Below, in pieces: positions 4,789-60,500 of a DNA stretch of 64,000 nucleotides (positions are counted from its first letter, which is position 1; the number at the start of each line of letters is the position of its first letter). Both the position numbers and the translations under genes were made by a program. Source of the stretch: Magnolia sinica (Eukaryota > Streptophyta > Magnoliopsida > Magnoliales > Magnoliaceae); the NCBI RefSeq assembly GCF_029962835.1, contig NC_080577.1, positions 6,510,001-6,574,000 of the forward strand. Direction: 5' to 3'. The notes under the pieces are model-generated. The model ran no database searches. It was not told the origin of the DNA and was given only the letters and a program-made list of their open reading frames with translations.

Positions 4789-6527
4789 TCATATCCAGCC
4801 GTTGATCGAAGATGGACAAAGAGTTTGAACCCCAACACCTAAGAAATCCCTAGTTTGCCCTCCTTCTTGATCATCCTTACGTGTGTTTTGCCGCTTTGAC
4901 GGATACATCTGTGTCTGGTTCGATGCGGAGAGATCATTTAAGGAGTTCTCTAGATCATGACCGAAACCTGGGGCAATTGGGTTTGGACCCATGATCCCAT
5001 TGTACCTGTTTACACCTTGAAGATGAGGGTTGTCGCACTTCATCCCAAACGTCCCAAGGAAAGATGAATCGGATGAAGTTACGCCAATCTGGGCGGCTTT
5101 TTGTAACAAGGCAGTCGCCGACATGTCAGTCGGTGTGGGGTGGTGGTGGTGGTGGTGTTGGGTGCTGTACAAGGAAGGAGCACTTACAAGGTGAGGGCTG
5201 CCAGCTTCCTTCATATTGCCTGATGTTAGCGATGTGCTTGTAAGTTCTCCTGAGTTCAACGACGAGAGCTTGCTCCCATACACCCAATTCAGTTGATAAT
5301 CTGTTTGTTGATGACTTGAACATGAAGCGAATGGATCTACATACATGGCTCCTGAATTCGCAGGACCGATTTGATGTAATTCTGAGAGATTATTGCTTAA
5401 GGTTTCACTGTCCTGAGGCCCTTGGCCCATCCACAGAGAGAGCCCGCCTCTACTTTGATCGATAGCCTGGTTGTTGTTCGTGATTGGCTTGAATATAGAA
5501 GGGAAATGTTGCACCATGTTCGGCTTTATCGAACTACTGATGAAATGAACATTGCCAGCGCCCATCTGGTTATTCATGTTTGATGCAGCTGAAACTCTTG
5601 CAGTTTCTTCTGCTAAGGCATCACAGAAGGCCCTGTGAGTGATGAAGCTATCTCTCCTGATATTCAACAACAAACCCAACAAAAATGAGAGAGAGAGAGA
5701 GGTGTAATCTTCTCCATGTTACAATCAATTGGGAAACTAATAAGCATGAATTACAATTTCCTTGCTTTGGTTTTCTTTATTTTCATTAGTTTGTATTGAT
5801 TAGCTAAAAATCTCATAATCTTAAACAACCATTTGTAGAAATTCATTTCAGCTATGGTTGTAACATACCTTGAGAACAAAGTCCCACAATCGCATCGATA
5901 CTCTCGTGTGCCGCATGTCTTCGAATGCGCTTTCCAATCTGACTGCACAGCATACCTCTTTGAGCACTTCTCACACTTCCACTTCTTCTCTCCATGCTTC
6001 CTACAAAAATGCTTCTTGATGCCGGTTAGATCTCCGAGAGCCCTGGATGGGTGGTGGTGCACACAGCTCTTTTCTGGGCACACATAAACGCGCTTTCTCG
6101 GCTCTTTGGTGCTCCTCTGCCTAAGCTTCCATGGAAGGTTATGCCCTCGACGGTGCAGTTGGAGGTTTTGGTCTCTTTGAAAACCTTTCCCACATATCTC
6201 ACACAAGAATCTGTTGGTGGCCATGAGAGTCTTCGGAGATAAGGCGATGACCTCTGCATCTGGATCTGTAACACCCACATGAAATCATGAAAAAGGAAGA
6301 AGATGCATGCATATACCAATAAAAGATATAGATACCAAGAAAAGGATAAAAGCTTTGCTTTGAGAAGAAAAATAAGAGAAAGGAAGAGAAGGGTTTTATT
6401 TTTCTAATTTGCCTGGAGTTCCTGGTAGGTTTCTCTTCCTCTTCGTTAAAGGAGGATTGGAATCCCCACATGGTTTCTGAGAGAAAGCTGATCTTGTGAC
6501 TGCTTCTCCAGCCATCTCACCCAACAT
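4789..6527 (-). CDS. IDD: IDD-family C2H2 zinc-finger transcription factor
   Basis: This gene encodes a plant INDETERMINATE DOMAIN transcription factor, a nuclear DNA-binding protein. Three coding exons join in frame: 6527-6413, 6265-5869 and 5656-4789 (115+397+868 = 1380 nt, 459 residues plus stop). The start at 6527 is the first ATG after an in-frame TAG at 6554-6552; a second Met at residue 5 is possible. Visible parts are a basic KRKRNLPGTP motif (29-38) and four fingers: C2H2 at 60-80, C2H2 at 101-129, C2HC at 136-156, and a fourth beginning C163-D-C165 and ending near C182, split by intron 2. The C-terminal half has LSLWMGQ (243-249), a six-His run (338-343), MSATALLQKAAQIG (349-362) and TRDFLGVG (439-446), followed by a tail ending SSINGWI. 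These C-terminal motifs match the JACKDAW/NUTCRACKER-like IDD subgroup, whose Arabidopsis members work with the GRAS proteins SHORT-ROOT and SCARECROW. The exact orthologue is not decided. Nothing suggests a pseudogene. Confidence 0.94.
5657..5868 (-). other. IDD intron 2 (GT-AG)
   Basis: The donor is AAG|GTATGT and the acceptor ATATCAG|GAGAG. The intron is 212 nt and interrupts the fourth zinc finger between the two Arg codons of FSRRDSF. It holds a short (GA)n tract at about 5687-5701, next to the acceptor side. Confidence 0.88.
6266..6412 (-). other. IDD intron 1, apparent GC-AG intron
   Basis: Exon 1 ends ...ACTCCAG and the intron begins GCAAAT. It ends TGTTACAG, and exon 2 starts ATCCAGATG. 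Joining the two gives the expected NLPGTP-DPDAEV reading through the split Asp codon. No GT donor nearby keeps that reading. The intron is 147 nt. Confidence 0.8.
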
Positions 6528-23897: not shown

Positions 23898-24320
23898 GGT
23901 CAGTGCTGTGGGCCCACCTTGATTTGTGTTTTTTATCCACATCATCCATCCATTTTCGCCAACCCATTTCAAGGCATGATCTAGAAAATGAGACAGATCC
24001 AAATCTTGGGTGGACCACACCTCAGAAAACAGTGGTGATTGAACGCCCACCATTAAGAACTTCCTAAGGTCCATTGTAATGTTTATTTTCCACTGATAAG
24101 GTCACACAGGTCTAGGCGAAGTTACAACACTTTTTGTAGCCTCTGAGAAGTTTTTAAGGGTGAGATTCCTATCACCCTTGTTTCCTATGGTGTGATTTAC
24201 TTGTAATTTGGATTTGTTTCATTTTTTGGCTCATATCATTAAATAAGTTGGCAAAATAGATGAATGACGTGGATAAAACACATACATCATGGTGAGGGCC
24301 CATAGAGCACTGACCAATAT
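23898..24320. mobile_element. Palindromic MITE of the GTGGGCCCACC family
   Basis: The left end GGTCAGTGCTGTGGGCCCACC and the right end, reverse complemented GGTCAGTGCTCTATGGGCCC, are inverted repeats. The two halves stay loosely complementary across the whole 420 bp, for example TTTTTATCCACATCATCC against ATGACGTGGATAAAACAC. This is the most abundant repeat family of the window. The long inverted arms suggest a Mutator-like MITE. Confidence 0.7.
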
Positions 24321-25399: not shown

Positions 25400-26215
25400 T
25401 ACACTTCCGCATGGATACTCATGATCTTGTCTGCCGTATGTTCTATTGCAATGCTCGTGCCTGGGTGCTTGGGCAGAGAGACCAAGTCAAGTGTGTGGCG
25501 AGACACTCATCCGTAGATAATCTGAAACAGTGATTTTTCTGTCGAGCGGTTCACCATGTTGTTGAATGCAAACTTTGCTTGAGACAAGGCCAAATCTCAC
25601 TGCTTCAGTTTTTCTCCTGAAATACAGCGAAGGAGGTTTCCCAAAGTGCGATTCACAACTTTGGTCTGCCCATCAGTCTGTAGGTGGTAAGCACTGCTGA
25701 ATTGAAGTCGTGTATCGAATCGAGTCCACAAAGTCCGCCAAAAGTGGCTAATAAATTTCGTGTCACGATTAGAAGTGATGGTTTTGGGGATCCCGTGTAG
25801 CCATACGACCTCCCTGAAGAATAAATTCACCACATGTATTGCATCAAAGGTCTTCTTACATTGAATAAAATGTGTCATCTTGGAGAAATGATCTACCATC
25901 ACGAATACCGAATCCATGCCGCGTTGTGTTCGTGGGAGACCAAGCACGAAGTTCATTGATAAATCCTCCCAAGGACCGTCAAGCATGGGTAACGAGGTGT
26001 AGGGCCCGCATTCTGAGATTGCCCCTTGGAGGTCTGACAAACATGACAACATTGAACGGCTTTTTCCATGTCACGTACTAATTGCGGCCAATAATACTTC
26101 TCTTCCACAAGAGCTCACGTCTTGTCTCGCTGTGGCCACCGAGGTCACCTCCATGTAGCTCCTGAATAATCTGCTCCCTCAGAGAACTTTGAGGGATGCA
26201 CAATTGATTCCCTTT
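25400..26215 (-). pseudogene. Integrase region with all three catalytic acids changed
   Basis: A degraded zinc-binding part lies at about 26040-26200. The core is open at 25597-26052. The family's first catalytic Asp, second Asp and Glu are Asn (codon 25951-25953), Asn (25768-25770) and Lys (25660-25662) here. Spacing between the second and third is 35 residues, as expected for a DDE integrase. Each change is explained by a single G-to-A step on the coding strand. Confidence 0.85.
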
Positions 26216-28239: not shown

Positions 28240-29574
28240 GTAATTCCTTTCGTGGGGCATACAGTAATCGCCTCACAACTAAAAATTCATCACGATCCTC
28301 GCCCGTCACTTCATCACCACCTGTTATTTTTTCAGTGGTTTGTTCATGTCCATCAAAGCCATGGTCTTCTTCTGCGGCTCCATCTTCAGTGCCCCCTTCG
28401 TTTATAGTCAAGTGTGCTGCAGGATGTTGAGGACAAGTATTTGATAAGTGGCCTGGCTGGCCACAGTGGTAACAATTATTCGACCTTAGCGAGCATAAGG
28501 ATTTGGAATCCTATTCGGGCCCGCTGTTGTGGGTGCTGCACGTTGAGGTCTGAATGAGTTGCTCCCCATATCACAGTTTGCAGTTGTAGGAAGTTGAGGA
28601 CGTTCTCCTACTGGATCCTTTCCTCGTGCCAGCACTGGATCCTACATGGGATCTGTCATGGGGGGTCGAGTTGAAGGATATGGATAAGCAGGAGCTCTTC
28701 CTAGTTGTGTTTCTGCCCTACCCGCCAATTGAACTGCTTCATCCACGATCCCGACTGGATACATCTGAACCCGGTCCTGAATTATCGGTCACAACCCACC
28801 TATAAATTGTACCACCTTCTGTGACTCAGATTCTAACAGATCGTTTCGTGCAGCCAACCACTGGAATTCTTCAGTGTAATCTGTGACGGTTCAATTTCCT
28901 TGTCGGTAATTTTGATATTGCTGGAATAATAGATGCTCATAATCACTGGAGAGAAATTGTGATCGAAGAAGACGTCTTATCTGTGGCCATGATAAGATGG
29001 GCACCTTGTTCTGACGGACTCGTGAGAGTTGTAATTGTTCCCACCATGCAGAAGCACTAGATTTTAATTTAAACGCTACCAATTTTACCCGTTTAAAATC
29101 TGACACGTCTATATAATCAAAATATCTCTCTACTTCGGCTAGCCAATTGAGAAAATCTTCTATACGTAATAAACCGTTAAAACTAGCAAGTTTAGCCTTA
29201 CCTCGATAGTCTCTTTCAGCACGATCTAGATAATCGCCTCCATGGATTGGTCATCAAACAAAACCCTCATTAAGGTCCTCGTCGCTAGAACTTGAATCAT
29301 CTAGTGTAGCCCTACGGTTTGCCACTGGTAGTGGTCTACGAAAATCGGGGTTGCATCGTACAGCAACCACGGGTAGTGAAGCAACCATAGGTGGTGGAGC
29401 ACCGCCTAGGGCTCGGGGCAGAAGTAGCGCATCCGCAAGACGGTCGAGGGTTACCTGCAGCCCTTACATGGTCAACTGACTCTCCTGGTGGAAAGCTTTT
29501 ATTCTTTCCGAAAGATAACAAATCTTTGGATCACCATCTATAGTATTTTAATTCATACCTTCATTGTTTGCCAT
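28240..29574 (-). pseudogene. Gag region with CCHC zinc knuckle, decayed
   Basis: The frame starts at an ATG at 29574 (MANNEG...) and meets a stop after eight codons. A readable block at 28891-29106 contains the retrotransposon Gag capsid pattern (KLKSSASAWWEQL, LLRSQFLSSDYE). A CX2CX4HX4C knuckle, read CYHCGQPGHLSNTC, lies at 28433-28474. Further in-frame stops after RQGN, after QFIGGL and after KELHLQ are TGA codons. CGA to TGA is the simplest origin. Gag would form the virus-like particle of the element. Confidence 0.85.
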
Positions 29575-31628: not shown

Positions 31629-32824
31629 GGGGGCATTTGGCGCATGGGATTGGGTGGGATTAGGTGGGATGGGATTCAAAACATGTCATTATCACGATCT
31701 GTTAGGGATTGTCTTCAATCCCACGTTGGTTGACTTGAATGGTGGAGTGTTTGGATGGGGAGTTAGCTTTAAATGCATCCTGGGGTTGAAGGTGGTGTGG
31801 CGTTTGGGTATAGCTCCAACCCCATGGGTTACGTAATCATGCACTCCAAACACATGTTTGGATAGCAATGTGGGTCTGCTCGGTGAAAGTTGCTACATTA
31901 CAAATCTCAGTCCTAGATGCGTTTTTTGGTAGTGGGCTAATGTTGATCGTCCATTTTGGAAGTGGCTTGGGTCCAGACCTCGCCTAGACTGTAATCCGTT
32001 CGGTCAAAGCACTATGTGGGCCATCGTTTCGTAATGTACTTATCCATGTCGCCCATCCCAATATACAGAACATTATATAATGCAAGCAGTTATTTCGAAG
32101 CATAACAAAGGCTTAAGTGGGCCACAAGTGGGGATTGAATGCCCACCATTAATAACTTCTTGGGAGCTACAGAAGTTTTGGATCAATCCGATGTTTTTGT
32201 TTTCACTTCATACAGGTGTATATGGCCTTATCAATAGGTTGGATGGTTAAAAAACAACATAATGGCCCTTGTATCAGCTCTCGAAGAAGGCTACACCTAC
32301 GCCTCCGATCGTCCACTCACCACCTGAAAATCGAACGGTCGGCTGAAGAGGGTCATCAGGTAGTAGCATCAAGGAAATCAGAAAACGGAGAAGCAGAAGC
32401 ACATACACCTACTTGCAAAGGATTTGAAGGCGTTGGGTGAAACCTGCTCTTCCTCTCACCTGAATTTATGGTGTGGGTTTGGTTGGATATCCCCCCATCT
32501 CAATCAATGGAAGAGATGTAATGAGAAAGACAAAAGATCGTGCCATCTGCAGGCTTGGAACGAGGGAGATATACGCAGTACTCCGAGATTTGGTGGGATT
32601 TCATTCAATCTCACTTCGAGCTGTTTAAAGGCCCGTGGAAGTGATGCTACTCTACCCCAAGACCAAGAGGGATTGTGCAAATCCCTTCCCTCAGCACAGT
32701 GTCCAATGCAGGCTTCGTAAATTTGGGATTTTGAATCGTCACCAAACAGACTTCTCATCAGATCCTGGGTTTTGAAATCCCATGCCCACCTAATCCCACC
32801 CAATCCTACACGCCAAACGCCCCC
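31629..32824. mobile_element. PIF/Harbinger-like element with about 55-bp inverted ends
   Basis: The ends GGGGGCATTTGGCG and, reverse complemented, GGGGGCGTTTGGCG continue into matched GGATTGGGTGGGATTAGG on both sides. TAA flanks both ends (31626-31628, 32825-32827), and the left TAA is shared with the neighbouring element. The 1196-bp body has no transposase. Part of it (about 32040-32290) is a piece of the common GTGGGCCCACC MITE. The open frames at 32216-32720 lack recognisable domains. Confidence 0.85.
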
Positions 32825-34649: not shown

Positions 34650-35030
34650 GCTAGGGATGGTGCGGGGCCCATTGTAATTTATATGTTTTATCCCCATTGT
34701 CCATCTGTTATGTCAACTTATTTTACGTACTTATGGGCCTAAAAAGGAGGCAAATCTGAAGCTCAAGTGGATCACGCCACAAGAAATAAAGGGGATTGAA
34801 TGCATACGTTGAAAAATTCTTGGGGCCATAAAAGTTTTAGATCAAGTTGATATATGTATTTCCTTTATCTAAGTCCTTGTAACCTTATAAACAAGTTCGA
34901 TGACAAATAAATATCATGGTCGGCCATGGGAAGGTTTCAATAGTACTGTGTGTCATTATCCCCACTACTTCTTGTTGTATGGTCCACTTAAGCTTTTGAT
35001 GTAGGACGTGGCATAGATACATTCTTAGAA
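34650..35030. mobile_element. Diverged copy of the GTGGGCCCACC MITE
   Basis: GCGGGGCCCATTGTAATTTATATG and ATCCCCATTGTCCATC at the left, the central TTGAATGC and TTCTTGGGGCC words, and TATGGTCCACTTAAGC at the right match the family consensus. The far right end appears displaced to about 35780-35840 (GTGGATGAATAAAACACATAT), which suggests a later insertion or rearrangement. Confidence 0.5.
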
Positions 35031-41691: not shown

Positions 41692-42115
41692 GTCACCAAG
41701 TTCTGTGGGCCCAATATGATGTATGTGTTATATCCACACCGTCAATCCGTTTTTAGAGATAATTTTATGGAGTGGGCCCAAAAATGAGGAAAGTCCAAAT
41801 CTCAAGTGGATCACACCACGTAAAGCAGTTTTGACAATAATGTACACCGCTGAAACATTTATAGGGATTATTATGATGTTTATTTGCACTCACAGTCACA
41901 GACCTGAACAAAGGAAAAAAATATCAGCTTTATCTAAAACTCCTGTGCCCCTAAGAACTTTTCAACGGTAGCCGTTCAATTTCCATAGTGTGGTCCACTT
42001 GAGCTCTGGTTCTGAATCATTATTTGGGGCCATTCCCTAAAATGCTCTAAAAAAATGTATTGACGGTGTAGATATAACACATACATCATGGTGGGCCACA
42101 TAACTTGGTAACCTG
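41692..42115. mobile_element. Palindromic MITE of the GTGGGCCCACC family
   Basis: The left end TCACCAAGTTCTGTGGGCCCA and the right end, reverse complemented TTACCAAGTTATGTGGCCCACC, are inverted. They lead into GATGTATGTGTTATATCCACACC on the left and its complement on the right. Non-coding. Confidence 0.75.
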
Positions 42116-42213
42116 GTGAAATCAACACACCAGCCAGGTCAGTGGTGCGTGCCACGCAATCCGCTTCCATAACGAAGCAGGCAGGCGAAAAGGTTGCTTC
42201 TGCTCGAGAAGAA

Positions 42214-43225
42214 GAGAAATTTCCTACTGTACGACCCATTTATGGCCCACCAGCCATTTGAAGCCCACCTCTTTTTAAGCTTCCAAGAATACTCCCCTGT
42301 GTACGGCCGACTTTTCAAGGGACCAAAATACCCCCGTCATTCATTCCTTCCGGAGGCCGATTGGCTGGGGTGCGAAGACGAGCGCTGACGCTCCTCCACA
42401 TGGCCCCCACAATGATGTATTTATTATATCCACACCGTTCATCCATATTTCGAGATCATTTCAGAGCATTATCGGAAAAAAGAATCATATCCACATATCA
42501 ACTGGACCACACCACAAATAGCAGCAGTAAACTTGATTTTCACTATTAAAAATTTCATAGGGCCCACCATAACATATATTTTCCATCCAATCTATTCATA
42601 AGGTCACAAAGACCTGGATGAAGAGGAAAAACAAATTTCATATTGATCTAAAACTTCTGTGACCCCTAACAGGATTTCAATGGTAGATGTTCAATCCTCC
42701 ACTGCCCCTTTTACGGTGTGGTCCATTTGATAGCTAGATCTGTCTTATTTTTTCGTCTCAAGCCTTAATACAAGTTCGCCAAATATATGGATGGTTTGGA
42801 TATAACACATACATCATAATGGGACCCACAAAAGCGGTGGGGATTACAACAGCGAAAAATAAAAATAAAAAAAAATAAACTAGGAACTTAAGGCTACGGG
42901 GTTTTCTATAGCTACGGATTATAACCGTAGCTATAGTTGCAGCCCGTGCCATTTCGATATGTCCTTTCATGTGTATCGAAGGTCTTTCGATTAATCAAAA
43001 AAGGTCCAGAACTGTCTAGCGAGTTTGCCTCAAAAATCCTGCAATTTTCGATACATATCGAAGCGTATTTGATATGTATTGAAGGTATTTCACCAATAGC
43101 TACGGATTATAACCGTAGCCATATCTGTAGTCTGTCCTGGTCAATGAAATTTTTATTATTTTTTATTTTATTTATTTATTTTACATGGAGAACTTTATTC
43201 TACCTACAATTTCCTCTAATACATA

Positions 43226-43323
<98 letters not shown>

Positions 43324-43490
43324 CATACAAAATATTTTTCTCTCTTTTTTTTTTCATTACTTTCTTTATTCATTTAACAAGAATATCTTATAAACCAAAA
43401 TTAGTTACTTGATGTACCTTATATGATTTTGGGGCAGGAGAAGCTACTTTAGCCAACCAACATGGTTATTTTTCAAGATTCCATCAGGTC
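42214..43490 (+). repeat. Left inverted arm of the foldback element
   Basis: In order it has the terminal motif, GACGAGCGCTGACGCTCC at about 42376, a MITE copy (about 42398-42830), the TAGCTACGGATTATAACCGTAGC unit (about 42909-43125), a long (AT)n tract, and an LTR-like fragment at about 43421-43465. It pairs with 46850-48124. Confidence 0.85.
43229..43321 (+). repeat. (AT)n microsatellite
   Basis: About 92 bp of unbroken AT repeats within the left arm. The right arm has only a short AT-rich stretch in the matching place (about 47033-47062), so the tract expanded after the arms formed or the right one contracted. Confidence 0.97.
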
Positions 43491-46312
43491 GATGGTCGAA
43501 AATTCATTTCATTCACTTCGCAGTCAATTTCAATCCGTTCACGGTCAATTTCGTTCATTTCATTTACTTCGTGATCAATTCCATGCATTTCACAGTCATT
43601 CCCGATAATTCCGTGTTGATTCACGGTCATTTCCATGCATTTCACGGTCAATTCCCTTCACTTCACGGTCATTTCCATGCATTTCACAGTCAATTCGCTT
43701 CACTTCACGGTCATTTCTATGCATTTCATGGTCATTCCCGACGATTCCGTGTTGATTCACGGTCATTTCTAGGCATTTCATGGTCAATTCGCTTCACTTC
43801 ATGGTCATTTCTATGCATTGCATGGTCATTCCCGGTTATTCCGTGTTGATTCACGGTCATTTCCACGCATTTCACGGCCAATTCCCTTCACTTCACAGTC
43901 ATTTCCACGCATTTCACGGTCAATTCCCTTTACTTCACGATCATTTCTATGCATTTCATGGTCATTCCCGACGATTCCGTGTTGATTCACGGTCATTTCC
44001 ATGCATTTCACGGTCAATTCCCTACACTTCACAGTTATTTCCACGCATTTCACGGTCAATTGTTGATTCACGGTCATTTTCATGCATTTCACGGTCAACT
44101 CCCTTCACTTCACGGTCATTTCCACGCATTTCACGGTCAATTCCCTTTACTTCACAATCATTTCTATGCATTTCATGGTCATTTCCGACGATTCCGTGTT
44201 GATTCACAGTCATTTCCACGCATTTCATGGTCAATTCCCTTCACTTCACGGTCATTTCCACGTATTTCACGGTCAATTCGCTTCACTTCACGGTCATTTC
44301 TATGCATTGCACGGTCATTCCCGGTTATTCCGTGTTGATTCACGGTCATTTCCATGCATTTCACAATCAATTCCCTTCATGTCACGGTCATTTCCACACA
44401 TTTCATGGTCAATTCCCTTTACTTCACGGTCATTTCTATCCATTTCATGGTCATTCCCAATGATTCCGTGTTGATTCACGGTCATTTTCACGCATTTCAC
44501 GGTCAATTTTCTTCACTTCATGGTCATTTCCATGCATTTCATGGTCAATTCCCTTCACTTCACGATCATTTCTATGCATTTCATGGTCATTCCCGACGAT
44601 TCCGTGTTGATTCACAGTCATTTCCATGCATTTCACGGTCAATTCCCTTCACTTCACGGTCATTTCCACGCATTTCACAGTCAATCCGCTTCACATCACG
44701 GTCTTTCCATGCATTTCGCAGTCATTCCCTTACATACTTTCATTTACTTGGCCATTTCCAACATTTCACGATCAATTCGTTCACTTCACGGCCATTTCTA
44801 TGATTTCATGGTTATTCGACGATTATTCATTTTCCACGCATTTCACTGGCCAATTCCCTTCACTTCACTTCCACGATTTCACTTCACTTCACATCACGGC
44901 CATTTCCATGCATTTCACGGCCATTCCTGGTGATTCCGTTCATGGCCATTTTCACGCATTTCACTTCCTTCACTTCACGGCCATTTCCACGCATTTCCAT
45001 GCATTTCACGGTCATTCCCAGTGATTCCGTGTTGATTCACCCTCATTTCCACGCATTTCACGGTCAATTCCCTTTACTTCACGGTCATTTCCACGCATTT
45101 CACTGTCAATTCCCTTCACTTACCGTCATTTCCATGCATTTCACGATCATTCCCGGCGATTTCGTGTTGATTCACTGTCATTTCCACGCATTTCACGATC
45201 CATTTCCTTCACTTCACTGTCATTTCCACGCATTTCACGATCCATTTCCTTCACTTCATGGTCATTTCCACGCATATTATGGTTAATTCGCTTCACTTCA
45301 CTGTCATTTCTATGCATTTCATGGTCATTCCCGCCGATTCCGTGTTGATTCACGGTCATTTTCACACATTTCACGGTCAATTCCCTTCACTTCACGGTCA
45401 TTTCCACGCATTTCTCGGTCAATTCACTTCACATCATGGTCATTTCCATGCATTTCACGGTCATTTCCACGCATTTCACCGTCAATTCCCTTCACTTCAC
45501 GGTCATTTCCACGCATTTCATGGTTAACTTGCTTCACGTCGGTCAATTCCTTCACTTTACGGTCATTTCCACACATTTCACGGTCAATTCGCTTCACTTC
45601 ACGGTCAATTTCATGCATTTCATGGTCATTCTCGGCGATTCCGTGTTGATTCGCGATCATTTCCATGCATTTCACGGTCAATTCCCTTCACTTCACAGTC
45701 ATTTGAAATGCATTTCACGATCATTCTCGGTGATTCCGTGTTCATTCATGGTCAATCCAACGCACTTCACGGTCAATTCACTTCACTTCATGGCCATTTC
45801 CATGTATTTCGCGATCGATTCACTTTAACTTCACCATCATTTTCATGCATTTCACGGTCATTCCCGGCGATTCCATGTTCATTCACAGTCAATTCAACGC
45901 ACTTCACGGTCAATTCACTTCACTTCACGCCCATTTCCTCACATTTCGCGGTCAATTCACTTCACTTCATCATCATTTCCATGCATTTCACGGTCATTCC
46001 CGGCAATTCCGTGTTCATTCACGGTCAATTCGACGCACTTCACTATCAATTCACTTCACTTCACGGCCATTTCTTCGCATTTCGCGGTCAATTCACTTCA
46101 CTTCACCGTCATTTCCATGCAATTCATGGTCAATTCCCGGCAATTCCGTGTTCATTCACGATCAATTCGACGCACTTCACGGACAATTCACTTCACTTAA
46201 CAGCCATTTCCATGCATTTCACGGTCATTCCCGGCGATTCCGTGTTCATTCACGGTCAATTTAATGCACTTCACGGTCAATTCACTTCACTTCATGCCCA
46301 TTTCCACACACC
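43484..46312 (+). repeat. Satellite-like tandem array, forward half
   Basis: About 2.8 kb of repeats is built from a roughly 42-bp word pair (TTCACGGTCATTTCCACGCA and TTTCACGGTCAATTCCCTTC), punctuated by GATTCCGTGTTGATTCAC about every 135-137 bp, which gives a higher-order unit near 136 bp. From about 45730 the spacer changes to GATTCCGTGTTCATTCAC, so two subfamilies lie in sequence. Stop-free frames of up to 210 codons on both strands follow from the repeat and are not genes. Confidence 0.93.
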
Positions 46313-46858
46313 GAAGTGCGTGGAAATGGCCGTGAAGTGAAGTAAATTGACTGTGAAATGCATGAAAATGACCGTGAAGTGAAGTGAATTGACCGCGAAG
46401 TGCATGGAAATGGCTGTGAAGTGAAGTGAATTGACCGTGAAGTGTGTCGAATTGACTGTGAATGAACACGGAATTGCTGGGAATGACCGTGAAATGCATG
46501 GAAATGACGGTGAAGTGAAGTGAATTGACCGCAAAATGCGAGGAAATGGTCGTGAAGTGAAGTGAATTGACCGTGAAGTGCGTCGAATTGACCGTGAATG
46601 AACACGGAAATGCCGGAAATGACCGTGAAATGCATAGAAATGACGGTGAAGTGAAGTGAATTGACATCGAAATGTGAGGAAATGGCCGTGAAGTGAAGTG
46701 AATTGACCGTGAAATGCGTGGAAATGACCGTGAATCAACACGAAATCGGCGGGAATGACCGTGAAATGCATGGAATTGATCGCGAAGTAAATGAAATGAA
46801 CGAAATTTACCGCGAACGGATTGAAATTGAACGCGAAGTGAATGAAATGGATTTTCAA
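46313..46858 (-). repeat. Satellite-like tandem array, inverted half
   Basis: About 0.55 kb of the same repeats in reverse orientation (GGAAATGACCGTGAAATGC, GTGAATGAACACGGAAT). The punctuating motif recurs about every 136 bp (near 46463 and 46599). This half is about five times shorter than the forward half. The point of inversion is near 46305-46316. Confidence 0.93.
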
Positions 46859-48124
46859 CCATTGACCTGATGAAATCTTGAAAAATAATCAGGTTGGTTG
46901 GCTAAAGTAGCTTCTCCTACCCAAAATCATATAGGGTACGTCAAGTAACTAATTTTAGTTTATAATATATTCTTGTTAAATGAATAAAGAAAAAAATGAA
47001 AAAAAGAGAGAAATTTTCTTTTATATGCTCATAGATATATGTTTATATAAATATATATTAGAGAAAATTGTAGGTAGAATAAAATTCTCCATGTAAAAAA
47101 ATAAAATTAAAAAAAATTCATAGACTTGCACAGACTACAGTTATGGATATGGTTATAATCCGTAGCTGTCGGTAAAAATACCTTTAATACATATCGAATA
47201 CTCTTTGATATGTATCGAAAATTGTAGGAAGTTTGAGGCAAACTCGCTGGACAGCTCTGTACCCTTTTCAATTAATTGAAAGACCTTCGATTCATATTGA
47301 AAGAGATATCGAAAGACTCTCGATACATATAAAAGGATATATGAAAATGCCATGGACTACGGGTATGGCTACGGTTATAATCCGTAGCTATAGAAAACCC
47401 CCTACCCTTCCTGGTTATTTATTTATTATTATTATTTTTTAAAAAAGATTTTTGCTATTATAATCCCCTCTGCTTTTTGTGGGTCCTATTATGAGGTATG
47501 TGTTATATCCAAACCGTCCATCTATTTGGCAAACTCATATTAAGGCTTGAGACGAAAAATAAGACAGATCTAGCTATCAACTGGACCACACCGTAAAAGG
47601 CTTCAGAGGATTGAACGTTTACCATTGAAACCTTTTTAGGGGTCACAGAAGTTTTGGATCATTATGAAATTTATTTTTCCTCTTCATCCAGGTCTTTGTG
47701 ACCTTATGAATAGATGGGATGGAAAATAAATTTTATGGTGGGCCCTACAAAATTTTTAAAGGTGAAAATCAATTTTCCCGCTGCTCTTTGTGGTGTGGTC
47801 CAGTTGATCATTGGGTATGATTTTTTCTTTTTGATAATGCTCCGAAATGATCTCGAAATATGGATGAACGTTGTGGATATAATAAATACATAACTGTGGG
47901 GCCCATGTAACTTTGATATCTTTTGAACCGTTCGTACAACTCGGAGTTCGAGGAGCGTCAGCGCTCGTCTTCGAGCACCAGGCAAGCTGCTTCCGGAAAG
48001 AAAGCAGGGGCATTTTCGACCTGAGAAATGGGACCGTACAGCTGGGCTTCTTCTTTGGAGGTAAAAAGCAAGTGGGCTTAAAAAGGTTGTGGCCATATAC
48101 TGGTCGTACAGTTGGAAATTTCTA
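46850..48124 (-). repeat. Right inverted arm of the foldback element
   Basis: This is the reverse complement of the left arm and keeps the same order of parts: the LTR-like fragment at about 46893-46935, the TAACCGTAGC palindrome region about 47140-47390, the MITE copy about 47465-47905, GGAGCGTCAGCGCTCGTC at about 47952, and the terminal motif. It lacks the long (AT)n tract of the left arm. Confidence 0.85.
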
Positions 48125-48579
48125 CGAGAAGAATTGATGCTCTGTCACGGTGCGATGGATGATACGCAGACACTAAGCACTTCAGAATAATACTAGGGAA
48201 ATTAAACCGTCCAAATTATGACAACCAGAGCACACGTACCACGAACCAAAAATTAACTTTATTTTATCATCTAAGTAATGGATTTATGGCACTTAATGAA
48301 CAGTTTAAATGAAAAAAAAATCCAACGGTCCTATCTTCACAAACAAGTGTCCACGAATCGTAGCCTAGGATTTTTCAACCAATCTGATACTGGGTACAGT
48401 GACATGCACAATCGAGGCGGTTTTATTTGAGTTAAGATGTGCCACGTTTGACAATTTCTGAGTGCCTGCGTATCAAGCGTCATACGCAGCGGAGTAATCA
48501 TATTACTCCTCTTGACCGAATTTCAAAACAGGCGTCTTCTATCTTCTTCCTCCTTCCGATATCGCATTCCCTGAGAAAT

Positions 48580-48650
48580 CTAGGGTTTTCGTTCATTGCC
48601 AATGGATTTAGGGTTCTACATCTTCAAATTCCCACATCCCTAGGGTTTTC
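48580..48650 (+). promoter_or_regulatory. Cluster of telo-box-like motifs upstream of the start codon
   Basis: Three TAGGGTTT or TTAGGGTT motifs occur within about 65 bp (CTAGGGTTTTC near 48582, TTTAGGGTTC near 48607, CTAGGGTTTTCC near 48640). AAACCCTA boxes are frequent in plant promoters and leaders of housekeeping genes. Their effect here is inference. Confidence 0.6.
48602..48643 (+). CDS. Upstream open reading frame, 13 codons
   Basis: An ATG at 48602 opens a 13-residue frame (MDLGFYIFKFPHP) that stops at 48641-48643, 34 bp before the main start. If the transcript begins upstream of it, the frame could lower translation of the main protein. No conservation data are at hand. Confidence 0.35.
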   Translation: MDLGFYIFKFPHP

Positions 48651-48677
48651 CATTTCCAAATTCCTCCACCCAAATCC

Positions 48678-51600
48678 ATGGATTCAAAAGCGTCTGCCAA
48701 ATCCAAGAGAGCTCACTCTCTACGCGGCAACAACAAAAAGTCTCCTCACTCAAATCCAAACCCTGGAAACCTTCCCCAATCAGCTCCAAACTCTAACAAG
48801 AATCAAAGCAGAGAGAATAATCGTCGATCTCACGCGGCTCCTGCTCTCCCCTCTAATTGGGATCGGTACCACGAGGACGGAATCGATTCCAATACGGAAG
48901 ATCCTTCCGTCGACGTCGACCACACCGGACGAGCCGACATCGTCGCGCCGAAAAGCAAAGGGGCTGATTTCGCAGAATTGATTTCTCAGGCTCAGACCGA
49001 TGCACGGGCCCGTACTAACCCTAATCCGGAGAGTTTCGTCTCGTTCGATGATGTTTTGCCTGGTAAATGGCCTAGCCTTTTGTTATTTCTAAGCACTGAA
49101 AAAAAAAAGAGATTGGGCTAAAATGTAGGTTTGCTATGTACTTCAAAAGAATTCCCTTTACTGAAGTTGGTTATTTACGTTGATTGTGAGTTTAATGCTG
49201 CTGGTTTTGAAGCAGTGTATTTGTTGGAAATTTAGCATCTCTGATAGAGACGATAATTGGTAGTTTCAACTATCTCTTGTCATTGGATAAGTAGAAAAAT
49301 GTTGTTGTTGTTATGTTAGAATCCAATTATTCTCGTTGAATACTTTCTTGACTTAATATATAGACAACCTGATTGAAGGGTGGACGCCTGATGCACATCA
49401 CGGTGGGGCCCACAGAGCTCATCCTCATGTGCGACATCCAATCTGTCGAATAGGTTGCCCCAATCAGTGGGTTTTTTTTTTTTTTTGCAAAAATCAGCCA
49501 CATCCACTCGCCAAGTTTTCTGCAAAGTTGTCTTTCAACTGTTCAAGCCATCTTAAGAGGGAGGAAGAGAGATTTGCGTGCAAAGTTATCTTTCAACCAT
49601 TTGAGCCATTGTAAGAGGGAGGAATAAAATAGAGGCAACGGTCAAGGGCCGTTTGGTTAAAAGAAGGCGATGAGCATACTTAGTTCTTTCATAATATAGC
49701 AAGTGCAAGAGCAAGGAATAATAGAATATGTAGTTTGGTGGTGGATGGAAAGAAGGTAGAAGAGTAGGAACAGATATGCACATCTATAACACAATTTTAC
49801 TCTAGACTGTTTGCAAGGGAGACATGGAAAAGGCCCAAATTGGACAACCTGCCGTTTAAGCAAATATCAAATGAGGAAGCAAAGAACCTAAAGAACCTTG
49901 AAAAAGTGACAACCAAGGAATAAATCAAACCAGCAATTGACTCCTTTGGGGAGGGATAAGGCTCTGGGTCCAGACAGGTACTCAATGGGCTTTTACTAGG
50001 TTTTTTGGAATGTTGCGAAGGGCTATGTCGTGGACTTTGTCAAAGAGTTCTTTTGAGAGAGGCAAGCTATCTATAGAAATGGGAGCCTCTTTTGTTGCCC
50101 TTGTTATGAAGAAGGAAATAGCGGATACATTAAAATATTTCAGGCTGATTAGTCTTTTAGGGAGCTTCTATAAGATGCGAAGATCCTTGCGTCCAGGTTC
50201 AACGCGGTTCTGGCAAATGTTATATCAGAAAATCAAGGGGCTTTCGTGGCAGGTAGGCAGATTTTAGGTAGTGCACTCATGGCTCATGAATATATCGATT
50301 CAAGGTATAAGGAAAGTAGTATAGGTGTCGTATGTAAATTAGATATTGAAATGGCATACAATCATGCAGATAGGGAGTTTCTTGATATATGTTGGAAAGA
50401 GTGGGTTGTGGTTTGAAGTGGAGAGATTGGATTCGAGAGTGCATTTGCTTGACAACGTTTTCGGTTTTGGTTGATTGATCGCTGAAGGGTTTTTCAAGGC
50501 TACAAGAGCCTTAAAGCAAGGGTATCCTCTATCTCTATTTTTGTTTGTGTTGATAGCAGAGGTTTTAAGCAAGATATTAGACAGGGCAGGAAGCGGATCT
50601 AATCAGTGGATTTAAGGTAGATAGATTAGAGATGGAGTTCGGATTTCCCATCTTCAATGTGCAAATGGTACCATCTTGTCATGTGATGCAGAATCATCAA
50701 TGGTGGATAGCCTAGAAGATACTAAGATATTACTAGGTGGTTCGGGACTGAAAGTTAATATGAATAAGTGTAACGTGCTAGGGGTGGGATTATTAAAAGA
50801 TGAAGTGCAAAGCTTAGTGGATATATTTGAATGTGAAGCTAGAACAGTTCTTTCTACATACCTTGGTCCCCATTATGTGTGCTGTGTGGGGAAGCCAACA
50901 AAGCACATTTTTTTTTTTTTTGGGTAAAGATAACATTACTAGGGATTGTGCCCTAGTTCACTCACACACACTACATTGTCTCTACCGGCTTATCTAACGT
51001 GCCGGATATAATTATCTTCTTGGATGTTACATTGTTTGTTTAAACATATAATTATCTTCTTGGATGTTAAAGTGTTTGTTTAAACACATAATTTAACGGT
51101 CAAATGCAGTTGTAATAGGCGACATGCAAAGGAATTTGTAGTCATTACAATTTTACATTGGATTGCAGTGGAAATCTTGTATCCAAACACGGGCATTAGT
51201 GTACATTTCCTATTAACTTGACATTTTAGTAATGTAAAAGTATCATCATTATGATTTTACCATTTCTATCTAAACACGGGAATTATCGGTCAAATTACCT
51301 ATTTTGCATGAGATGAGTATCGTGATTTGTACTTCTAAAATACATTACAGCCATAATTCGCAATCCAAACAAGCCCTAAATCAATTTTGGCAAGACCAGA
51401 AAAGTTAAGACGAGACTTCTTATGGAGAGGGGCAGAGGTTAGGCAAAAGTTTCATTTCCTGAAGTGGGAAGACGTGTGTAAGCTTATTGCTAAAAGGGGA
51501 CTGGGTATAAGGGTTTTAGAGTCAAGGAATTTAGCATTGTTAGGAAAATGGAGGGTGAAGATTTGACAATGAAGAAGAGAGAATGTGGAAGAGATGTTGT

Positions 51601-57510: not shown

Positions 57511-60500
57511 CATATATATATTTTCAATGTTTTGCTGTTTGACTGGTAGAATATGATGTGTTAATCATAATAGAAGATATTAATGTCTATTTTACATATT
57601 GTTGTTGTCATTTTATATTTTTTTATAATTTTTTTCTATTTACGCACTATTTTTGGCTTTTTTTTTTAATTCGAAAAATCATTTTTTATTAAATGTTTTG
57701 CTGTTTAAATGGTAGAATATGATGTGTTAATCATAGAAGAACATGTTAATGTCCATTTTACAGATTGTTGTTGTCATTTTATATTTTTTTTTATAATTTT
57801 TTTCTATTTACACACTATTTTCGGCCCTTTTTTTTTAAAAAATTCGAAAAATCATTTTTTATTCAATGTTTTTCTGTTTTAATGGTAGAATATGATGTGT
57901 TAATCATAGTAGAAGATATTAATGTGCATTTTACAGATCATTGTTCTCATTTTATATTTTTTTATAATTTTTTTCTATTTACACACTATTTTTGACTTTT
58001 TTTTTTTTAAAATTCGAAAAATCATTTTTTATTGAATGTTTTGTTGTTTTAATGGTAGAATATGATGTGTTAATCATAATAAAACATGTTAATGCCCATT
58101 TTACAGATTGTTGTTGTCATTTTATATTTTTTTTAATAATTTTTTTCTATTTACGCACTATTTTCGGCCATTTTTTTTTTTAAATTCGAATATATTACAC
58201 ATGTAAGATATTTTCATATTACATTCATTCTAATATATCTATCATTGATAGTAGATAGTTAGAAAATTAAATATATAAGTTTTGCAGTCAAATCCAGGTT
58301 GTCTGGTTCATAAATTCATTAGACAATCCGATACAACTTCTCAGCAAAGAGTGGACCATTACACCACCATAAACATGTTCCAATTTATAAATGAATGTAT
58401 ATTTGGAATGCTTAGAATATTCCGGATTTAATCCATATTTTTTCATTTTTTTTGGCAAAATAAAAAACAAAAATTGCACCGTTATGGGCCGTTATGCCCC
58501 CGTATCACCGTTACACCCCCGTATACGTATCAGTATCGGAGGGCACCATTATGCCAACCGATACCGATACGGGATACCTTGGGGGTATCATTAGCGTGCC
58601 CCGTGTACAATGGCTTAGTAGTCTAGTGACACCTTTGTTAAATGTGTCTCTCTTGTCTTTAAAAATGGGGCAAAAAAAAAAGAAAAGGAAAGAGGCATTT
58701 AACTCCAATTACACCTGAATAACAAAAAAAATGTGAGCTTTCAAAACACCACAAAACTGTCTATTTCAAATACCTCCAAATCTGTTTACCTCCAAAAACA
58801 AAGTGTCAAACTCTAAAAGTAGCCATAAGGAATCCATTTACCCCCAAATACATCGAAAACAGGGCTGCCAAACAATCTGTTACCATGTCAAGGATTGAGA
58901 ATGACAGATCCTCCAAATTCTCTGGCCATGGGTGCGGCAAGGATTGGGTACAGCTCATAAGTATAACCATGTTTAAATAATAGCAATTTCACAAGTTGGC
59001 TTTGTAGTATATTCACTATAATGCTTAATAACTAGAATGTCTGGAATCTAGTGTTCCAAAACCCCATTGATCCGGATTCCCAAATCCTGGGGAATGGGAC
59101 CCCTTAATTTTTATCTGATTATCTGGATTGGGTGCTTTGCTTTCTGGAAATCATCCTCGCACAATTGGATCTGGTTTAAGGCTTGAGAAGCATAAGATGG
59201 AGATGTGGTGTCTCAGCTTGCCATGCTAATGTATTCTTCCTGGGCAAGGCATTCCATAATGCTATTGGTGGCTATGATGGCCACTGGTGTTACTGTTACA
59301 GGATGGGCCATGACGGCCGTTACGGCTTCTTCTTCTTCTTCTTCTTCTTTTTTTTTTGGGGAAAAAACCTATTTCGGCCCTATAACAGACCATTATGGGC
59401 CAATTTTTCTGTTATGGATGTTGGGTAACCCTTGTAGAATACTTTGTTGCTGGGGCAGCAGAGATACCTGTACGCTACAAACCATAGTAACATGAGTTAC
59501 AATATTTCCACTTGATTAACATATTGCATGCATTTATGATCATGTAATGGGGCAATCTGGGCTGGGTCTGATCTGTCTAGGGCAAATCTTAGCTCTTGTG
59601 ACCATGGTTCTGAGGCTAGAGTTTGGATTTTTAAATTCGCGGTTCTGGGGTTTTGTTGTTCTATCTTTTCCCAATTCTGATTGTCAGTTGCTTGGTTACA
59701 CTTTGATTGAACATCAAAAGCCATAATAGATACATTTTTCTTATTTGGTACAGGTGCATGTTAATTTCTCTAGTCCTATTTTGTATGCACATGCACGCAC
59801 AATTTTTTGCAGCGGCTCAATTTTATTCCTGGTCTGGGATGTGCGAGTCCCGATGCACATAAAAAAAGACAGCATGAACATGTCATACATGTTTGTTTTG
59901 CCCATTCACATTTTAGTATGCAATTGGTCAACAGTGCTTCCCCCAAGCATAGACCGTTTAGTACTTGATTCACAATCCTGTCGTGAACAAGTTACCCTAT
60001 CCCCAAGTGCAAATACCGAATATTGTGCACTAAACCTACTAGGATGCAAGAATGGAAGGATGTGTTGTATTGCTTTAGAGCTCCAAAACTTTTGAACTTC
60101 TTGTGGATAGGATGCAAATGAGGCATCCTCCTTAATAGAGGACTATGAACATTCTAGGTTCTCTACATAAATGGCTAGGATGATGCCATGTGGTAATCAT
60201 TCGACGGCTGAGAACATTTCAGGAACTTTCTAGAATACTCTACAGTACTCCCCATACAAGACTCCACTAGAAAACTCTAGAGCATTCTAAAGATCTCTAT
60301 GCTATCAGACTCATACACAACTCTACTATTCTCTAGAATTCTCTACATACATACTATTTACACAAACCTTTAGTGTACAAAATGAGCATTGCACAAATAG
60401 CTAATCTCTTGATTTAACCCCCCCTGAATGATCAGTCCGTTGGAAACTGCTACTTTGATTGTTAGTATGTCAAGAGTATGCAAGCTTTCACAGTTAGCCA

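Follow-up and report, generated by a model that had tools for sequence, protein, structure and literature searches.

The question raised by this locus is whether a satellite array enclosed between two inverted arms, in a 64-kb stretch of the Magnolia sinica genome (the window, 64,000 nucleotides, in whose positions all coordinates are given), travels as part of a mobile element or has merely come to lie between two arms. The structure occupies 42214–48124, is 5911 bp (5.91 kb) long and stands between perfect 9-bp duplications, and its termini, GAGAAATTTCCTACTGTACGACC on the left and TAGAAATTTCCAACTGTACGACC on the right (reversed), share 21 of 23 bases. Given that the repeats fix the ends, and at 40% GC, simple arithmetic puts the chance of a nine-out-of-nine duplication at about 5e-6. 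A first-pass annotation, made from the letters alone, had claimed perfect 9-bp duplications with matched termini and arms of about 1.3 kb, and both claims hold: CGAGAAGAA flanks the element at either end, and the inverted arms, about 1.3 kb each, lead into the satellite array (Table 1).

Table 1. Parts of the element and its target site duplications, in window coordinates
Feature	Position	Strand	Basis
Left 9-bp target site duplication, CGAGAAGAA	42205..42213	.	Sequence; abuts left end
Left outer terminal inverted repeat, begins GAGAAATTTCCTACTGTACGACC	42214..42396	+	140/172 aligned columns (81%) against right outer repeat; left 396 bp found at 39 other places
Left arm second domain, dispersed module	42398..42863	+	91% against right arm; relatives at ~65–75% elsewhere in window
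Left arm third domain, two GCTACGGATTATAACCGTAGC-like palindromes and the stretch between	42869..43178	+	Palindrome survey of loci
Left arm inner domain, (AT)n at 43229–43321, grades into array	43179..43492	+	Arm comparison
Forward satellite array, 21-bp subunit, 136-bp higher-order unit	43493..46310 (start approximate)	+	Lag and junction analysis
Inverted satellite array of 21-bp/136-bp units	46311..46851 (end approximate)	-	0.83 identity at lag 136
Right arm inner domain	46852..47084	-	Arm comparison
Right arm third domain, two palindromes as well	47085..47434	-	Arm alignment and palindrome survey
Right arm second domain	47435..47908	-	Matches left second domain
Right outer terminal inverted repeat, begins (reversed) TAGAAATTTCCAACTGTACGACC	47950..48124	-	Pairing with left outer repeat
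Right 9-bp target site duplication, CGAGAAGAA	48125..48133	.	Sequence; abuts right end

Mutator-like elements (MULEs) make target site duplications of 9–11 bp and have terminal inverted repeats of typically 100–500 bp, and their long ends are transposase sites, according to the accessible text of one study (PMC3310237). The duplication found here, read in the window copy, one of 20 copies, is a perfect 9 bp, and the terminal inverted repeats are long, with arms of about 1.3 kb that are 81–91% identical by domain. The element is built as a foldback as well: inverted repeats make up much of it and are predicted to be capable of forming a hairpin (a fold without shuffled control), and tandem repeats lie inside the inverted arms, the array turning back near 46310 and doing so again in a second copy, L008. 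The Mutator-like foldback anatomy that had been proposed is thus upheld by the 9-bp duplication, the matched ends and the inverted arms.

Read from the left, the arm passes from an outer repeat of about 183 bp through a module of about 465 bp, a palindrome module and an inner (AT)n stretch into the satellite, and the right arm has the same order of domains on the opposite strand. Counting aligned columns alone, left and right agree at 140 of 172 positions (81%) in the outer domain (135 of 182, 74%, by BLAST with gaps counted), 418 of 460 (91%) in the second, 254 of 297 (86%) in the third and 160 of 176 (91%) in the innermost (43324–43503). The (AT)n run of the left arm is 93 bp long; its counterpart in the right arm is no more than a short AT-rich stretch. 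Relatives of the second domain, at about 65–75%, occur at 23907–24302, 32127–32254 and 34661–35000, which suggests that the arms may have absorbed a widespread repeat. About 90 bp to the left of the duplication lies a MITE-like inverted-repeat sequence of about 0.4 kb (41692–42112), with ends about 80% complementary and about 65% related to the second arm domain.

The interior had been described as consisting only of tandem repeats, with a 136-bp higher-order unit. It is indeed satellite of 21-bp and 136-bp period, but it is not a single array, since a forward array is followed by an inverted one, and the left part is a mosaic, in which junction anchors are spaced at 94–95, 135–137, 177, 217, 302 and 425 bp with no clean 136-bp series. 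Identity at lag 136 is 0.54 in the left part of the array against 0.83 in the right. Because the array is inverted near 46310, the mirror image extends about 0.55 kb further into the satellite, and the whole element is a long, lopsided palindrome, a feature absent from the first-pass annotation. A single strand of 45600–47000 is predicted to fold as one long hairpin (without a shuffled control at that length). Reading frames through the array are open, as expected because the unit is 21 bp. No RNA family matched at E 0.01 in the window or in 19 other loci, and no tRNA was found in the window.

One candidate source for the satellite was the outer ends themselves, and it was rejected: the best local scores were no better than those of first-order shuffles, with 84–100% of 200 shuffles scoring as well against the two outer repeats. 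With the left arm, taken over its first 1.2 kb, 34% and 100% of 200 shuffles were as good on the two strands.

Whether the array belongs to the element can be judged from other copies. A search of the 1.84-Gb assembly (127 contigs) with the left 396 bp, in which 40 of 4959 candidates were scored, gave at least 41 matches, made up of the window itself, 39 places at 93–98% and one weak match (69%). This copy number of left ends is a lower bound, and the unscored candidates may often be the dispersed module rather than the element. We compared the window copy with 19 other loci, reading in each of the 20 about 1.89 kb of the left part of the element and 1.5 kb of flanking DNA. Every one of these 20 loci begins with the terminus GAGAAAT[T/C]TC[C/T]TAC, and the 9-mers ahead of it, 70% A+T over the 20 loci, are all different except in one pair, L009 and L017. 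When flanks were compared all against all, this same pair, both on C4 and 5.4 kb apart, shared 1.27 kb at 96%, and we take the two to be one probable duplicated insertion. Two more pairs share 140 and 83 bp of flank at 79–80%, the shared stretches lying at unequal distances from the ends, a pattern that dispersed repeats would produce. Because L009 and L017 alone were counted as a duplicate, the 20 loci, with the window among them, would represent 19 independent insertions. The first-pass annotation had suspected that the unit had spread and had named two findings that together would speak against it, the lack of any second copy and an orthologous allele with flanks and arms but no 9-bp duplication; at least 39 further left-end matches contradict the first of these and, with a common first base in all 20 loci, bear the suspicion out.

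The first 640 bp of the left arms have a mean identity of 94% among the 20 loci (range 88–98%), the window left arm standing at 96.9% to the majority sequence. The mean identity of the same left arms to the right arm of the window, the single right arm available, is 84.5%. Left arms thus resemble each other much more closely than they resemble that right arm. With one right arm to go by, this suggests that the divergence between the arms is older than the spread of the family and that its members moved whole. In the third domain, both window arms hold a second palindrome and an intervening stretch, and the 19 other left arms hold one palindrome in 15 cases and none in four (L008, L011, L015 and L020); these four, at 94–95% identity, lie further from the majority than most others, as does L012. 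Recent copying of the palindrome insert from one arm to the other appears unlikely because the inserts of the two window arms fall short of near-identity (86% over the domain), and the simpler guess is that other copies lost a palindrome by exchange between two palindromes.

The arms are followed by an array of the same satellite in 19 of the 20 loci, beginning 0.8–1.3 kb from the end of the element, and in 18 of the 19 other loci the six strongest lags include 136. The exception in both counts is L009, where the arm passes through a degenerate array edge into other sequence and no array is present in the 1.89 kb read, so that within the duplicated pair L017 has the array and L009 lacks it in the DNA read. 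Right after the broken edge, at about 2816–2940 of L009, inspection by eye shows a short tandem repeat of another kind, gaaattgagtagggcaaacat-like and with a unit of about 21 bp. The centre of the array was reached in two copies, the window and L008, and in both the array turns back on itself; in L008 about 0.5 kb of array precedes the turn, which lies some 1.5 kb from the end and has a junction different from that of the window. The remaining 17 loci with an array showed no turn within about 1.89 kb of element. The units vary too: the exact GTGTTGATTCAC junction occurs four times in the first 1.9 kb of the window copy and once or not at all in each of the 19 others, and GTGTTCATTCAC or close variants of it occur in 14 of those 19. 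Inversion point, array length up to that point and unit type therefore all differ between copies. Because 19 of 20 loci run into the same array, the array belongs to the family and is, as far as the copies read can tell, a fixed part of the element.

Concerted evolution within single arrays was assessed on units of 120–150 bp, other spacings being dropped, which left 20 units, 11 of them from the window. On these 20 units, identity was 85.3% within arrays (42 pairs) and 84.5% between arrays (148 pairs), and six of the 20 units had their closest match within their own labelled array, a figure that becomes nine of 20 when the left and right arrays of the window are treated as one copy.

We consider it very probable that the locus is one copy of a non-autonomous MULE foldback family of which the satellite core is a fixed part, the assignment to MULEs being drawn from the length of the duplication, the long repeats and the letters of the termini, with duplication and right end coming from one of the 20 copies. 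The differing unit type of the outer left array, with its four exact GTGTTGATTCAC junctions, might be expected if mobile arms had in this one copy been joined by a separate satellite that expanded in it or was inserted into it; that account is contradicted by 19 of the 20 loci, where this satellite occupies an equivalent position, and by the 136-bp lag in 18 of the 19 others, and we regard it as very improbable. A chance or segmental inverted duplication with no transposon at all deserves still less credence. Segmental duplication has evidently copied one insertion, as L009 and L017 show, but given that at least 39 left ends are dispersed through the genome, that one fixed terminus is preceded by differing 9-mers in the 20 loci and that the window copy has a perfect duplication, we do not believe that it made the element.

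The superfamily is a closer matter. Merlin and hAT-like elements make duplications of 8–9 bp, and the family might be a foldback of such a superfamily. The 9-bp duplication occurs here together with arms longer than 1 kb, and the GAGAAATT... terminus resembles the maize Mu terminus GAGATAATTGCC; both argue against assignment outside the MULEs. In favour of it, the MULE assignment comes from ends and duplication and not from a transposase, and Tetris, the nearest published parallel, was itself placed in Mutator by duplication length and earlier suggestions about foldback elements and not by a transposase, in the part of the report available (PMC4079207). On balance we find a non-MULE origin improbable.

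If the family is indeed a MULE foldback, the 9-bp duplication, together with arm length and terminus, points to a cut-and-paste MULE transposase as its likely mover. Such an enzyme, supplied from elsewhere, would recognise the outer repeats and move the whole palindrome, and the array would be carried along. After insertion the array may lengthen, shorten, invert or change unit type through unequal exchange, slippage or hairpin-mediated repair, changes that its inverted arrangement should favour; the predicted long central hairpin would likewise favour breakage and copying errors in replication, and hence shifting centres. The tandem repeats of Galileo in Drosophila contain additional binding sites for its transposase and bind it, as the consulted part of that work states (PMC3688188), and the Magnolia repeats could in principle serve as extra contact sites of this kind. 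Nothing in the present data supports such a role, because the similarity of the satellite to the outer repeats is not above that of shuffled sequence; with that similarity absent, the array need not be useful to the element.

The arrangement had been thought possibly undescribed, a view that the literature does not support for the general arrangement, as the concept is already published for Tetris (PMC4079207) and Tm1 (PMC3169594), so far as the accessible portions of those papers go. Tetris, from Drosophila virilis, is a foldback with long composite arms and 8–10-bp duplications, whose internal tandem repeats have grown into satellite arrays. It resembles the Magnolia element in being non-autonomous, in its composite arms, Mutator assignment and variable array copy number, and in its satellite-linked repeats, the likeness being one of described structure. 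Its arms comprise a flanking domain, a tandem-repeat domain and an inner domain. In contrast to the Magnolia element, it is an insect element, with 220-bp repeats within arms around a middle domain, and is reported in three structurally complete copies (PMC4079207). The Magnolia element belongs to a plant, has 21-bp/136-bp units, has no other middle in the window copy and is represented by at least 40 left ends, the window included. Furthermore, the Tetris repeat shares 37 bp with its own flanking domain, whereas no such similarity was found here, and for the fly, satellite arrays beyond complete elements have been demonstrated, according to the same partial text (PMC4079207).

Tm1 of Meloidogyne, a Mutator/foldback element, is like the present family in that its arms are composite and contain variable tandem repeats, its duplications are 9 bp long and its copies are mostly non-autonomous. 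It differs in its 14-bp repeats, in other interiors (for example histone-hairpin motifs) and in having a known transposase-bearing member, as described in the available text (PMC3169594). Among plants, FARE of Arabidopsis is, like the Magnolia element, a foldback classed as a MULE (as cited in the excerpts of PMC3169594 and PMC4486113). MuTAnT of Medicago is a plant MULE with foldback ends (PMC4486113), and plant MULEs with multiple ends have duplicated long ends and 9–11-bp duplications (PMC3310237); a satellite core is not described in the accessible text of either report. Galileo shares the long, internally repetitive arms but belongs by its transposase to the P-element superfamily (PMC3688188, in part). 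Further transposon-derived satellites, MITE-borne ones among them, appear in the available part of a 2022 review (PMC9659126). Among the matches listed in our literature search, which covered titles and abstract openings and few subscription papers, none described a satellite core in a plant MULE. A plant MULE-like foldback with a palindromic 136-bp higher-order array inside it thus looks like a new variation on a published concept.

The origin of satellite DNA is an old question, and the same array at the same place in independent insertions offers replicates of array evolution from one start, with the arm sequence as a clock. The reading we prefer, a MULE foldback family with a fixed satellite core, can be extended by supposing that arrays leave their elements to become independent satellite blocks, as for Tetris (PMC4079207, from the part consulted). 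That precedent speaks for such seeding, as does the variation between copies in unit type, in where the array turns and in its length up to there; against it, the arrays seen, those of 19 loci picked by their left ends, all lay in elements. Seeding does not oppose the preferred reading, and we hold it to be possible but somewhat doubtful. In its full form the proposal would make a plant MULE foldback family a vehicle of satellite DNA, planting a palindromic 136-bp array at dozens to hundreds of sites where arrays evolve separately and some outgrow or lose their ends to become ordinary satellite; we advance it tentatively, as less likely true than false. If free arrays do exist, the Tetris idea would be extended from flies to a plant, with a palindromic core.

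Several features of the neighbourhood are of separate interest. About 0.55 kb to the right of the element lies an open frame of 169 codons (48612–49121, plus strand; possible start near 48678 by hand count), and the element may lie in the 5′ region of a gene there; in a Pfam run on eight of the 46 frames, array frames being left out, no match supported coding in this frame. Two minus-strand frames, 25597–26070 and 28891–29250, gave a gag match above the cut-off and an integrase match below it, respectively, and likely belong to an LTR retrotransposon. On the same strand, the frame at 5751–6284 matches Pfam models of BIRD-IDD zinc fingers, a plant family, and is adjoined by a long frame at 4789–5718. 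Finally, a 170-bp unit is tandemly repeated about 3.9 times at 57523–58190, beside an (AT)n run.
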